Assembly (NCBI GenBank): GCA_017849435.1
Contig: JAFIGY010000002.1
Coordinates: 62,001 to 126,000, forward strand
Source: Chitinophaga niabensis
Lineage (GTDB): Bacteria; Bacteroidota; Bacteroidia; Chitinophagales; Chitinophagaceae
Length of the DNA stretch: 64,000 bases
Reading direction: 5' to 3'
Shown piece by piece: positions 7,594-11,422 of the stretch (within the stretch, counting starts at the first letter, position 1; the number at the start of each line of letters is the position of its first letter). A program made the position numbers and the translations under genes. A model generated the notes under the pieces. The model was not told the origin of the DNA and ran no database searches. It was given only the letters and a program-made list of their open reading frames with translations.

Positions 7594-7967
7594 ATGAAAA
7601 TTCATATTCCAACCAGGATGGCCGTGGTGCTGTATGCGTTGATATGGGTGTACTTTGGCATCAATCATCTGTTACATGCCAAAGAAATGGGGCCAATGGT
7701 ACCGCTGCCTGGCGGTACTTTCTTTGTAGTGCTCACCGGTATTGCCATGATACTGGCGGCAGTAGCCATCATCTTCAACAAATATGCAAAGCCGGCCTGT
7801 TACCTGCTGGCATTGATGCTGGTGATTTTATCCTCACCATTCACGTACCGGGACTAATCAAGGGTAACCTCATGGCGCCCGGGAACATCCTGAAAGATCT
7901 GGGTCTGGCGGCCGGAGCGATCGTGATCGGGAATGTGATCAACCATATCAAGCAAATAGGGCAGTAA
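7594..7967 (+). pseudogene. DoxX-like small membrane protein, interrupted by a -1 frameshift
   Basis: The first frame (7594-7857) encodes MKIHIPTRMAVVLYALIWVY and continues through hydrophobic segments to YLLALMLVIL, then degenerates to SSPFTYRD and stops. From about 7827 the next frame continues the family pattern as ILTIHVPGLIKGN...ILKDLGLAAGAIVIG and stops at 7967. Adding one T to the run at 7826-7829 restores a single 124-residue DoxX-like protein with four membrane segments, the size expected for this family. This is either a genuine one-base deletion in a homopolymer or a sequencing error. The repaired stop codon sits inside the hairpin of repeat copy A. Function is unknown; DoxX relatives are often linked to redox or thiosulphate metabolism. 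Confidence 0.75.
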
Positions 7968-8012
7968 TCTTTTACTGCCCTATAAGCTTTCGACCATATC
8001 CTATGAAAAACC
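7959..8012 (-). repeat. Hairpin repeat family, copy A (diverged)
   Basis: Perfect hairpin GGGCAGTAA - TCTT - TTACTGCCC at 7959-7980, followed at 7993-8012 by ACCATATCCTATGAAAAACC, the conserved block shared with copies C and D. Read on the minus strand the block precedes the hairpin, which is followed by TATTTG. The 21-bp-spaced direct repeats of the other copies are not at the expected distance here. Two weak GGTA sequences 21 bp apart (8084 and 8105) may be a remnant. The hairpin overlaps the end of the DoxX-like gene. Confidence 0.7.
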
Positions 8013-8224
8013 ACTTCGAATGTACGTGGATTTGATACCGGCTGCTTACCAGACTTCCTATATGTCAGCTTTGAACCTATATCCGGTAGCTTTATGCCGA
8101 TGACTGGTAAACAACTGCCCGGTTTTCTCTGACCGCTGGTACATTTCATTCCCGTATTTGACATTTGATCTTTATTTTCGTCGCCTCGCGGAGCGTAATT
8201 ATCCGCACCACAACCTGTAAAATT

Positions 8225-10366
8225 ATGAGAAGCATGTACAAATCTCTGCCGGTATGGTTTGCCGGTCTCTCCCTGTTGACCGTTGCCTCACAGCCGGCCG
8301 GCGCACAGGAAAAAAAAGAGCTCTCCTTTGAGCAGATCTTCACCCGCCCGGTGAGCATCACAGAACCCCTGCCCCTGATCCGTGGATGGGCAGATAAAGA
8401 TCATTACATCGAGAACCGGGACGGGAAGCAGCTTTCCGTGGATGTAAAAACAGGCAATACAGCAACCTATGTACAGCCGCCGGCCACCGGCAGCACGGTG
8501 AGCGTAAAGAACAACGACATCTACCTGCAAAGACCCGGTGGTGGCGAAGAAATCAGGCTCACTAACGATGATGCCGTGGAAAAGAACCCCACGCTTTCTC
8601 CCGATGAAAAATATGTCGCCTTCACCCGCAACAATAACCTGTATGCGGTAGAAATAGCTACTAAAAAAGAAATACAGTATACAACGGATGGTTCCGATGT
8701 GATCTACAACGGCTGGGCCTCCTGGGTATACTACGAGGAGATCCTCGGCCGCCCGTCCCGATACCGCGCGTTCTGGTGGAGTCCGGACAGTCGCAAGCTG
8801 GCTTTCATGCGCTTCGACGATTCTAAAGTGCCCGTATTCCCGATCTACAGCGAAGTGGGGCAGCATGGTTACCTCGAGAACACACGTTATCCGAAGGCCG
8901 GGGACACTAATCCCGAAGTGCGGCTGGCAATCGTTCCCGTAACCGGCGGTACCATCACCTGGGCGGATTTTAATTCCAAAGACGACCAGTATTTCGGTCA
9001 GCCCTTCTGGACGCCCGATGGCAGCAGTCTCTGGGCCCAATGGATGCCCCGCGATCAGAACAATCTCATCATATACGCCATCGATCCGCAAACCGGCACG
9101 AAGAAAGCGATCTACGACGAGAAGCAGAAAACCTGGATCGACTGGTTCAAGGATATTTATTTCCTGGCCGGCAATAAAGGTTTCATCGTGATGAGCGACA
9201 AGTCCGGCTGGGATCATATTTACCTCCATAATATGGACGGCAGCCTGAAAAAGCAGCTGACCAGCGGTAACTGGCGCGTAAAGGAAGTATTGCAGATCGA
9301 TGAGAAAAAACAGACCGTTTATTTCACCGCACGAAAAGAGGCAACCACCCGTTACGATCTTTACAAAACCAGCCTCAACGGCGGAGAGCCGCAACGACTC
9401 ACTTTCGGGGAGTTTTCCCATGAAGTAAAAGTGGCGCCAGGCGGCGATTATTTCATCACCACCTACAGCAACCTGAAAACCCCTCCCCGAATGACCCTCC
9501 TGAATGACAAAGGAAAGGTCATTCGCGAACTGGGGAATGCCCATGGTACTGCATTTGACAGCTACCGCCTGGCCCTTCCGGAACTGCGGACCTACAAAAC
9601 CCGGGACGGACTGGAGCTGCCGCTGACTATCATCTGGCCACTGAAAATGGAACCCGGTAAAAAATATCCCGTGCTGATCAGCATCTATGGCGGTCCGGAT
9701 GCCGGCACCGTTTACGACACCTGGCGCCCTAACCTCCCCGCTCAATGGTATGCGAAGGAAGGTATCATTCAGGTAGCGATCGATAACCGCGCCGCAGGAC
9801 ACCTCGGTAAGATTGGTATGAATTATATCCACCGCCAGCTCGGCAAATACGAGATCGAAGATTATATGGATGCCACCCGCTGGCTCACCAGTCAGCCCGG
9901 CGTAGATGCCTCCAAAGTGTGCATCACCGGCGGCAGCTTCGGCGGATATATGACTTGCATGGCCCTGACTTACGGGGCGGATGTATTCACTCATGGCATC
10001 GCCAGCTTCTCCGTAACCGACTGGAGCCTGTATGACAGTCATTATACCGAGCGCTACATGGATACACCCAAAGACAACCCGGAAGGCTATAAGCTGACCA
10101 GTGTGCTCACCCATGCCGGCAAGTATAAAGGCCTGCTCCGCATCATCCACGGTACCATGGACGATAACGTACATATCCAGAACAGCATCCAGCTGGTGAA
10201 CAAGCTGGAAGACCTGGGTAAACACTTTGAATTTATGGTATACCCCGGCGAACGGCATGGCTGGGGTGGGGCCAAAGGGATGCATTCCCGGAACGAAGCC
10301 TACCGTTTCGTATACGAGCATCTGCTGGAAAAACCACTGCCGGATCTTTTTAAAGGCACTAATTAA
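8225..10366 (+). CDS. S9 family peptidase, dipeptidyl peptidase IV type
   Basis: A 713-residue exported serine peptidase of the prolyl oligopeptidase clan that removes N-terminal dipeptides, typically X-Pro. It has a signal peptide (about 1-24), a DPPIV N-terminal beta-propeller (about 40-480, with the WASWVYYEEILGR segment typical of DPP4 substrate glutamates), then an alpha/beta hydrolase domain. The catalytic triad is visible: S571 in GGSFGGYM, D646 or D647 in HGTMDDNVH, H678 in GERHGW. The nucleophile motif is G-G-S-F-G-G rather than the common G-W-S-Y-G-G. The ATG at 8225 gives a normal signal peptide; an earlier TTG at 8165 is unlikely because it precedes a promoter-like TATTTTCG at 8173. 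It is probably involved in peptide nutrition in the periplasm. Confidence 0.92.
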   Translation: MRSMYKSLPVWFAGLSLLTVASQPAGAQEKKELSFEQIFTRPVSITEPLPLIRGWADKDHYIENRDGKQLSVDVKTGNTATYVQPPATGSTVSVKNNDIYLQRPGGGEEIRLTNDDAVEKNPTLSPDEKYVAFTRNNNLYAVEIATKKEIQYTTDGSDVIYNGWASWVYYEEILGRPSRYRAFWWSPDSRKLAFMRFDDSKVPVFPIYSEVGQHGYLENTRYPKAGDTNPEVRLAIVPVTGGTITWADFNSKDDQYFGQPFWTPDGSSLWAQWMPRDQNNLIIYAIDPQTGTKKAIYDEKQKTWIDWFKDIYFLAGNKGFIVMSDKSGWDHIYLHNMDGSLKKQLTSGNWRVKEVLQIDEKKQTVYFTARKEATTRYDLYKTSLNGGEPQRLTFGEFSHEVKVAPGGDYFITTYSNLKTPPRMTLLNDKGKVIRELGNAHGTAFDSYRLALPELRTYKTRDGLELPLTIIWPLKMEPGKKYPVLISIYGGPDAGTVYDTWRPNLPAQWYAKEGIIQVAIDNRAAGHLGKIGMNYIHRQLGKYEIEDYMDATRWLTSQPGVDASKVCITGGSFGGYMTCMALTYGADVFTHGIASFSVTDWSLYDSHYTERYMDTPKDNPEGYKLTSVLTHAGKYKGLLRIIHGTMDDNVHIQNSIQLVNKLEDLGKHFEFMVYPGERHGWGGAKGMHSRNEAYRFVYEHLLEKPLPDLFKGTN

Positions 10367-10393
10367 AGAGAAGGTATCCCCTATCTCCCTATA

Positions 10394-10429
10394 AAAAATG
10401 CCCCCGCCTTGTTCAGCGGGGGCATTTTT
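10394..10429. terminator. Bidirectional terminator after the DPP IV gene
   Basis: A5-TGCCCCCGC, 8-base loop, GCGGGGGCA-T5: a 14-bp stem with a U tract in either direction, 28 bp after the stop codon. It also insulates the peptidase gene from minus-strand transcription coming from repeat copies B and C. Confidence 0.9.
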
Positions 10430-10465
10430 ATGAGAATATCTTTCGGGAGTTAAGGGCAAAAAACA

Positions 10466-10593
10466 GGGCTGCAAGAATACAGCCCCGAAAAATTTTAACC
10501 ATATCTTTATTGAAAAACCTGTTACAAATTTCCATAATTTAGAAGTAACCCTCATCTGCAAATTCGCCAACGCTATATTTTTTCTGGTAAACG
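10466..10593 (-). repeat. Hairpin repeat family, copy B
   Basis: Hairpin GGGCTGCA - AGAA - TACAGCCC (10466-10485, one C/A mismatch), conserved block ATTTTAACCATATC...GAAAAACC (10492-10519), CAAA (10525-10528) and direct repeats TCGCCAACG (10564) and TGGTAAACG (10585), 21 bp apart. On the minus strand the order is repeat pair - TTTG - 21 bp - TATGGTT - hairpin - TTTTTT. The fifth stem pair is T:A where copies C and D have G:C. Confidence 0.75.
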
Positions 10594-10700
10594 TTCTAAA
10601 AACAGCATTAAACGATGTGAACTATTTGTTAATCCGGAGCAGAAAAGCGACATCAAGATAAGATTACAGTATCCTTAAAGAGCAGTTGCGGGAAATGAAA

Positions 10701-10828
10701 AAGGCGGTAAGAATACCGCCTTTGTAATAATTTTAACCATATCCTATGAAAAACCTAAGTCAAAGATAAGGCGGTTCTGATGCCTCGCAATCCGATTTCC
10801 GTGAACGTCATAATTTAGTTCGTAAAGC
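10701..10828 (-). repeat. Hairpin repeat family, copy C
   Basis: Perfect hairpin AAGGCGGTA - AGAA - TACCGCCTT (10701-10722), conserved block TTTTAACCATATCCTATG then AAAAACC (10731-10755), CAAAGATA (10761-10768) and direct repeats CCGTGAACG (10799) and TCGTAAAGC (10820), again 21 bp apart. Between the block and the direct repeats, CAAAGATA..GGCGG is shared with copy D. On the minus strand the hairpin is followed by TTTTT, so it can act as a terminator. Confidence 0.8.
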
Positions 10829-10887
10829 ATAAAAAACCGGTCTTTTGCAGACACATTAATATTATTTTTAAATTAAAAATAATTTCA

Positions 10888-11226
10888 CTAGGCGATTCTA
10901 TGTCCGTTTTTTACGGGCCTGTCCGGCTGAAGCAACACGATTTCCTTGTCTTCTCCCACTACCCCCAGCACCAGGCATTCCGAGAAAAAATTGGCGATCT
11001 GCTTCACCGGGAAGTTCACCACTGCCACCACCTGCCTGCCGGGAAGCTCTTCCGGCTGGTACAGGCGGGTGATCTGGGCGGAAGAGCGTTTAATCCCTAT
11101 TTCCGGACCAAAATCGATCTCCAGCTGGTAGGCAGGGTTCCGGGCCTTTTCAAATATCTGCGCGCGCAGGATGGTACCTACGTGAATGTGCACCTTTTCA
11201 AAATCATTCCAGGTAATGGCTTCCAT
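10888..11226 (-). CDS. csaA: CsaA-type tRNA-binding domain protein
   Basis: A 112-residue single-domain protein of the CsaA / EMAP-II-like tRNA-binding OB-fold family. MEAITWNDFEKVHIHVGTI and the segment GIKRSSAQITRLYQPEELPG, followed by VVAVVNFPVKQIANFFSECLVLG, are the characteristic pattern. Family members form dimers and have been described as chaperone or export-associated proteins; the tRNA-like binding role here is inferred. Start chosen at the ATG complementary to 11224-11226; a longer frame up to 11376 would translate through repeat copy D. A plausible promoter lies downstream of that hairpin: TTTG, 19 bp, then TACCTTCA on the minus strand. The gene is flanked by repeat copies on both sides. 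Confidence 0.88.
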   Translation of the reverse strand: MEAITWNDFEKVHIHVGTILRAQIFEKARNPAYQLEIDFGPEIGIKRSSAQITRLYQPEELPGRQVVAVVNFPVKQIANFFSECLVLGVVGEDKEIVLLQPDRPVKNGHRIA

Positions 11227-11297
11227 GTAAGAAATATTTAATAATGGATAAATAACGGGTTGAAGGTAGAAATTGTCGGGTTGAGGGCAAAAAAATA

Positions 11298-11422
11298 GGG
11301 CGGTAAGAATACCGCCCTCAAATATTTTTAACCATATCCTATGAAAAACCAATACAAAGATATGCAGGCGGCTCATATCTCCATTTCGCTTTTCGTAAAC
11401 GGGTGGTTTTATCTCGTAAACG
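11298..11422 (-). repeat. Hairpin repeat family, copy D (upstream of csaA)
   Basis: Perfect hairpin GGGCGGTA - AGAA - TACCGCCC (11298-11317), conserved block TTTTTAACCATATCCTATG then AAAAACC (11325-11350), CAAA (11355-11358) and two identical direct repeats TCGTAAACG at 11393 and 11414, exactly 21 bp apart. On the minus strand it reads CGTTTACGA x2 - TTTG - 18 bp - TATGGTTA - hairpin - TATTTTTTTG, then 70 bp to the csaA ATG. It is the best preserved copy. Confidence 0.85.

Follow-up and report, generated by a model that had tools for sequence, protein, structure and literature searches.

A multi-copy, terminator-ended noncoding element of Chitinophaga niabensis that probably represents a FopS-like small RNA family

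One element occurs four times, always on the minus strand, in the window, by which we mean the whole stretch of 64,000 nucleotides of Chitinophaga niabensis DNA analysed here (contig JAFIGY010000002.1, positions 62,001 to 126,000). The genes flanking these copies, A to D, include those for a DPP-IV-like peptidase, an aldo/keto reductase and, near copy D, a tRNA_bind protein that we take to be CsaA-like. Model R2, built from 65 copies from 31 sources with the four window copies among its members, matched copy A at 7947-8014 (59.1 bits), copy B at 10454-10521 (76.4 bits), copy C at 10690-10757 (82.5 bits) and copy D at 11286-11352 (85.8 bits), with E-values of 8e-19 to 2e-12; the next-best matches in the window had 20.6 and 20.5 bits (E ~0.005). 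This search bore out all four locations given in a first-pass annotation, which had described the element as a short repeat with a covarying hairpin. Read along the minus strand, every copy has the same order of parts: a -7 promoter box, 4-5 nt, a 5' block, a short linker, a hairpin and a U-tract. The 5' block is nearly invariant and reads GGUUUUUCAUAGGAUAUGGUUAAAA; in copy B it is CAAUAAAGAUAUGG, and in copy A it ends with GGUCGAAA. The hairpin has 9-12 bp and a UUCU loop, from which copy A differs. As had been proposed, the loop, AGAA on the plus strand, is kept in B, C and D, and it recurs in a fifth copy, E, described below; the T-tract that follows the hairpin on the minus strand is indeed weakest in copy A.

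The predicted transcript of copy D, ~62 nt long (11289..11350, minus strand), has a GG start, the seed block, the hairpin at 11297-11318 and the U-tract (E 2.9e-15 with R1, a model built from the five copies A to E). Its -7 box, TATCTTTG, occupies 11355..11362, and further upstream, at 11393..11422, lies the direct repeat CGTTTACGA-N12-CGTTTACGA, the sole match without a mismatch genome-wide. Copy C has the same box TATCTTTG at 10761..10768, a predicted transcript at 10693..10755 with its terminator hairpin at 10700-10723, and a direct repeat at 10799..10828 with 3 mismatches to the consensus. For copy B the predicted transcript is 10458..10519, with the variant seed GGUUUUUCAAUAAAGAUAUGG and a hairpin at 10464-10487; the first base of its box GAAATTTG (10525..10532) deviates from TAnnTTTG, and its direct repeat (10564..10593) has 2 mismatches to the consensus. 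Copy A has a predicted transcript at 7953..8012, a hairpin at ~7957-7982, a weak U-tract and a degenerate box, TACATTCG, at 8017..8024; like the others, these parts lie on the minus strand. The ends of the 128-bp unit at 10593, 10828 and 11422 coincide exactly with the outer half of the direct repeat upstream of the promoter box.

The compensatory changes that had been named in the hairpin are real: copies C, D and E have G:C at the inner pair, where B has U:A and A has A:U, and at an outer pair G:C (A, B and D) alternates with A:U (C and E). Taken by themselves, the five own copies have two pairs changed on both sides, a count equalled by 120 of 500 shuffles, and the covariation score was equalled by 3 of 500. 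Covariation also exceeded chance in wider alignments, by a shuffle-based score on related rows. Among 65 copies (58 distinct rows), 98.7% of the cells pair, five of nine pairs are changed on both sides, and the score is 0.356 against a shuffled mean of 0.179, with none of 500 shuffles as high; in 26 family matches, both sides change in all nine pairs (0.695 against 0.203). The fitting of both alignments to a model favours structure, and because their rows are related, the counts of changed pairs are not independent events. RNAalifold, applied to the alignment of the 65 copies (A3), returned the same helix plus one pair. The covariation resides in the terminator, and the best-conserved part of the element is the unpaired 5' block, a feature that the first-pass annotation had missed, together with the promoter box and direct repeat upstream and the likeness to FopS discussed below. 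Only the terminator is paired in the consensus fold; in single folds, A and E also pair the 5' block, and C and D pair a few of its bases. Folding stability was above that of shuffles, with z from -2.7 to -4.8 (copy B folded minus its first four bases). The claim that the copies have no coding frame in common also held: among the 65 copies of A3, the hairpin stands in frame 0, 2 and 1 relative to the AUG of the block in 33, 24 and 8 cases, and a coding function was rejected on the ground that no frame is kept. A minus-strand family of short RNAs ending in an intrinsic terminator, as had been suspected, is thus supported by the sequence evidence.

The element is not confined to these four copies, nor to this genome. 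Copy E lies at 16:57874-57939, 4 kb before the window, with TAATTTTA as its -7 box, and a divergent sixth copy on the plus strand (16:747104-747165) brings the genome to six clear copies. At E<=0.1, R1 gave seven matches in this genome, of which the five listed are A to E, and 5-21 matches per genome in 36 of 36 genus genomes (our own included), with E down to 3e-15; the possibility that only the four window copies exist thereby fell away. In other families of the order, 8 of 23 genomes had one or two weak R1 matches (best 3.5e-4). R2 at E<=0.001 matched 87 of 298 order genomes, namely 6 from the genus, 65 from elsewhere in the family and 16 from other families, and missed at least 14 family genomes. 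In 22 of the 24 loci read outside the genus the block is present, usually in the form GGUUUUUCAUAGGAUAUUGGAUUUUAAA, together with hairpin and U-tract; the two read in other families, L321 and L336, have no block and may be chance matches. Orthologous copy sites can be recognized, the spacing from D to C being 596 bp in both G000 and G012. Tandem arrays of the small RNA (sRNA) genes were seen at G015:C108:19321-20398 (period ~253 bp), G030:C1:195047-195821 (~236 bp) and G032:C3:489889-490534 (~195 bp), as if copy number itself were changing. The element is, in sum, a terminator-ended, noncoding, multi-copy and genus-wide one, with a promoter box and, in most copies, an upstream repeat. Among the open-access papers listed by our searches, we saw no earlier description of this family in Chitinophaga.

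Upstream of the predicted start, the information in the 65 copies peaks at -13 to -6, at -1/-2 and at two CGTTYAC blocks near -72 and -51; the stretch from -41 to -14 holds little. A strict TAnnTTT stands near the start in 40 of the 65, and CGTTYACSA-N12-CGTTYACSA with up to four mismatches was found in 57 of the 65, rows that include orthologues, as against 0.1% of shuffles; at the same tolerance it was found upstream of 0 of 75 FopS copies. In 11 B-type copies (L062, L066, L067, L074, L077, L080, L082, L083, L084, L085 and L089) the best repeat pair starts at -95, one 21-bp step outward, and several of these seemingly have three phased CGTTYAC repeats. The own genome contains 142 direct-repeat sites with up to three mismatches, those at D, B and E among them, against 72 for the reversed pattern; there may be a wider regulon. 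Sites of LytTR regulators typically consist of two 9-11-nt repeats with an 11-13-nt spacer (PMC4847170). The repeat described here, with 9-nt halves and a 12-nt spacer, fits that geometry, and that a LytTR-class regulator might bind it is our guess, a lead drawn from geometry only.

The known system most relevant here is FopS (Rfam RF04319), a family of paralogous sRNAs of Bacteroides thetaiotaomicron, with 12-15 copies per genome in the Bacteroides counted, that represses SusC-like transporters via start-codon pairing (PMC11697453). Both families are multi-copy, ~60-70 nt long (a predicted length in our case; FopS RNAs are expressed at 65-70 nt), with a short linker, a Rho-independent terminator and a TAnnTTTG-like -7 box at equal distance. 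The 5' seed begins with GUUUUUCAU in both, identity extending over GUUUUUCAU-AG; FopS copies follow the same plan of keeping the 5' block and exchanging terminators, and the form found across the family keeps TATTnGATTT, as in FopS. The own genome also encodes one RRM_1 protein, the class of RbpB, which binds FopS RNAs. On the other hand, the Chitinophaga seed is shorter and diverges after CAUAG, and the genus has a conserved terminator hairpin with a UUCU loop, whereas FopS terminators vary widely. Moreover, FopS promoters have a TTG-like element near -36, where Chitinophaga has the 21-bp direct repeat and no conserved TTG, and FopS upstream regions contain the exact palindrome ATGTTNNNNAACAT in 17 of 75 cases (0.1% of shuffles). 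With up to one mismatch this palindrome stands near -69 or -37 in 26 of 75 Bacteroidales FopS promoters (L121-L200), where it is a candidate site for a FopS regulator.

Searches of Rfam found no family for the copies at its own thresholds. When these were relaxed, FopS was the top family for copy D, over its full length (1-71), at 28.8 bits, short of the cut-off of 56; weak scores of the copies to DapZ, L20_leader, sraA and others were judged to be chance terminator matches. Across the whole own genome the FopS model placed D first (E 0.057) and E second (0.27), and A, B and C were not among the ten matches listed at E up to 10, although copy C scored 21.9 bits in a small search. The same model matched weakly in 8 of 14 control genomes, E. 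coli included, and listed none of the family forms at ten loci at E up to 1. Conversely, R1 was weak on FopS copies (best E 0.011; pattern-preselected loci, 35 of 80 used). One degenerate pattern catches both groups: among the matches listed, 74 of 83 usable rows have the FopS form of 31 nt, 7 the form of 24 nt and 2 a length of 30 nt. Among the 80 loci listed, out of at least 118 stretches matched, the exact 24-nt form in named genomes was seen only in Chitinophaga (7 loci). Two copies of the FopS form (L137) came from a metagenome-assembled genome labelled Clostridium sp., which is probably a mislabelled Bacteroidota genome. The viral contig set gave one exact match to the seed pattern, of the family form, in a 236-kb contig classed as viral, where a terminator-like hairpin comes after the block at L487:5815-5839; a phage has also been reported to carry FopS (PMC11697453).

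Over the whole block, likeness to FopS was matched by none of 5000 shuffles for the family form and by 2 of 5000 for the Chitinophaga form. Once GTTTTTCAT was removed it was no longer significant, with 1068 of 5000 shuffles as good for Chitinophaga and 499 of 5000 for the wider family. A joint MAFFT alignment (A4) misplaced GGTTAA between the groups, and a better one (A6) gave the sequence-only model R3; since R3 contains both groups, its matches cannot prove kinship. It matched 20 of 395 phylum genomes: our own, 11 of the 13 family genomes sampled, five from the class (E<=6e-9; in two of them, G556 and G706, the loci read have the FopS form) and three weak ones. Given the poor Rfam scores, the non-significant remainder and this distribution, we call the family FopS-like and do not file it as FopS, although descent from FopS appears likely.

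Possible targets were assessed by duplex energies on start regions, taking the most upstream ATG as start, delimiting genes by a simple codon score and ignoring accessibility. In Bacteroides ihuae (G556) the FopS seed paired with susC starts at -15.69 (35 of 53 matches used) against -10.11 for other genes (n=132; p 7.8e-12). In the own genome, the own seed showed no preference for susC (-10.51, 56 of 56, against -10.35, n=250; p 0.22), nor did the family seed in G082 (-10.49, 35 of 53, against -10.81, n=135; p 0.75). Because the same test succeeds in B. ihuae and not here, SusC as a general target in this genome is unsupported. Foreign seeds showed some preference for susC (FopS seed, p 0.012 in the own genome and 0.04 in G082; family seed, p 0.022 in the own genome; Chitinophaga seed in G556, p 6e-4), so that part of any susC signal is generic. 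On start regions in general, the pairing of the own seed still exceeded that of each of 200 shuffled seeds. A pattern for complementary starts, with the usual sRNA copies excluded, gave 29 matches in 23 of 60 genus genomes, and 11 of these, in 11 genomes, mark the start of homologues of a single gene, which encodes a secreted protein of ~190 aa; another match, L468, close to an sRNA cluster, resembles an sRNA copy. In both loci checked (L458 and L022) the secreted-protein gene stands between a PrmA gene and one whose product has KH and S1 domains, presumably pnp. The L477 protein, the most divergent, is only 40-47% identical to the other ten, yet its start region ATAACCTTATCCTATGAAAAA is kept. 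On the common form of this start the seed duplex reaches -26.4 kcal/mol, a strength attained by none of 500 shuffled seeds. The protein, ~191 aa and encoded beside prmA, has no match in Pfam, NCBIfam or PDB, and is the best target candidate.

Taken together, these observations suggest that the window carries four paralogous genes from whose minus strand a noncoding RNA of ~60-65 nt would be transcribed, each equipped with a TAnnTTTG-like promoter box and a Rho-independent terminator of its own. Because the invariant 5' end is antisense to translation starts that read UAACC-n-UAUCCUAUGAAAAA, the RNA would most likely act in the manner of FopS in Bacteroides, by keeping translation from being initiated on mRNAs that start in this way. 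A transcription factor acting on the 21-bp-spaced CGTTYACGA direct repeat probably co-activates most copies, and the favoured candidate target would be the secreted protein beside prmA, not SusC transporters as a class. We hold this account as a whole to be probable, with reasonable confidence. Several observations weigh against it. Twenty-five of the 65 copies have no strict TAnnTTT, and copy A, which is possibly decaying, lacks the direct repeat (8 mismatches at best), and both its promoter box and its U-tract are weak. Pairing with start regions is modest (about -10.4 against -8.7 for shuffles); when one half of the seed was shuffled, 0-9 of 100 decoys equalled the own seed, and the B-type seed was equalled by 23 of 200 shuffles on susC and by 17 of 200 on other genes. 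The excess of complementary starts over the reversed pattern is likewise modest (29 against 17). For the candidate target, the own-genome site is one base short and pairs less strongly (-20.5), and the B-type seed is weak on it (-14.4). In addition, the target pattern was relaxed after the own-genome instance was known and covered only orthologues that fit it, so conservation of the site is estimated with bias, and the secreted-protein gene is a candidate and not a test.

Two rival explanations concern parts of this account and do not exclude all of it. The similarity to FopS might reflect convergence on a 5' end antisense to AUGAAAAAC start codons, with no link by descent. The loss of significance without GTTTTTCAT would fit this, as would the omission of the family forms and of A, B and C by the Rfam model, its weak matches in control genomes, and the finding that the joint model, outside the family and the five class genomes, gave three weak matches only. 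Yet the likeness of the whole block is almost never reached by shuffling, the multi-copy habit, promoter spacing, linker and terminator are alike in FopS, and the family form retains TATTnGATTT; convergence therefore seems to us rather unlikely, if a serious contender. Alternatively, the RNAs may share an ancestor with FopS and still mainly repress mRNAs of SusC and polysaccharide utilization loci, the pairing test being too crude to reveal it. Points in favour are the ranking of D and E at the head of the genome-wide FopS search (though at unimpressive E-values), the FopS-like promoter box and spacing, the frequent occurrence, in own-genome susC starts, of the T at -1 and the A following ATG that the seed requires, the own seed's superiority to 200 of 200 shuffles on susC, and the slight susC preference of the foreign seeds in this genome. 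The very same test, however, gave a clear signal in B. ihuae and none for the own seed or for the family seed in G082, and we consider such a role improbable.

That the copies are instead leaders or attenuators acting in cis on the genes beside them, or simply bidirectional terminators, would accord with the U-tracts ending the hairpins and with the position of copy D directly upstream of the tRNA_bind gene on the same strand. Yet the nearest protein genes in the minus direction from A, B and E are on the plus strand, copy B follows C, and every element comes with a promoter box of its own and with an invariant block for which a terminator has no need; this explanation is very improbable. We give still less credence to repetitive DNA of the kind of repetitive extragenic palindromes or miniature inverted-repeat transposable elements, spread by transposition with no RNA function. 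The multi-copy, intergenic nature of the element and its tandem arrays in some genomes (periods ~195-250 bp) might invite it, but orthologous sites are kept, as the constant spacing of D and C illustrates, conservation falls into separate promoter, seed and stem blocks with compensatory changes, and no transposase was found among the six neighbouring proteins scanned.

Comparable arrangements are known elsewhere. In streptococci, the cia-dependent csRNAs comprise several paralogous sRNAs under one regulator that recognizes a direct repeat, in another phylum and with another regulator class and seed. Closer in phylogeny, GibS is a Bacteroides sRNA whose R1 seed paired to start regions (PMC11697453); by description only, it is set apart from the Chitinophaga family in being a single gene that has a second seed, R2, and a promoter of another type.

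Two further features of the window adjoin the copies. An open reading frame of 87 aa at 7594-7857 on the plus strand seems to be continued in another frame to 7968, with its stop inside the copy A hairpin; the stretch 7594-7968 could be a frameshifted membrane-protein gene, and its first part had no Pfam match. A strong, perfect inverted repeat at 10394-10429, after the DPP-IV-like gene and before copy B, is probably an ordinary terminator.

In all, it appears that Chitinophaga has a real FopS-like sRNA family, one in which both input and output have probably changed relative to FopS. More tentatively, as an idea that we put below even chances, this may be an ancient Bacteroidota sRNA family whose chassis of promoter, seed and terminator has been kept in Bacteroidales and Chitinophagaceae and whose circuit has been exchanged at both ends, so that Bacteroides FopS would respond to a different signal and repress SusC, while the Chitinophaga branch would be driven by a regulator of the phased 21-bp repeat and would repress another secreted protein, conserved in the genus, for which its seed had been rewritten. 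Resemblance alone does not justify transferring the SusC-repression model. A FopS-like family across much of the Chitinophagaceae would be a second, distant branch beside the gut-bacterial Bacteroides system, and would allow one to ask how the targets and inputs of sRNAs evolve and why so many copies persist.

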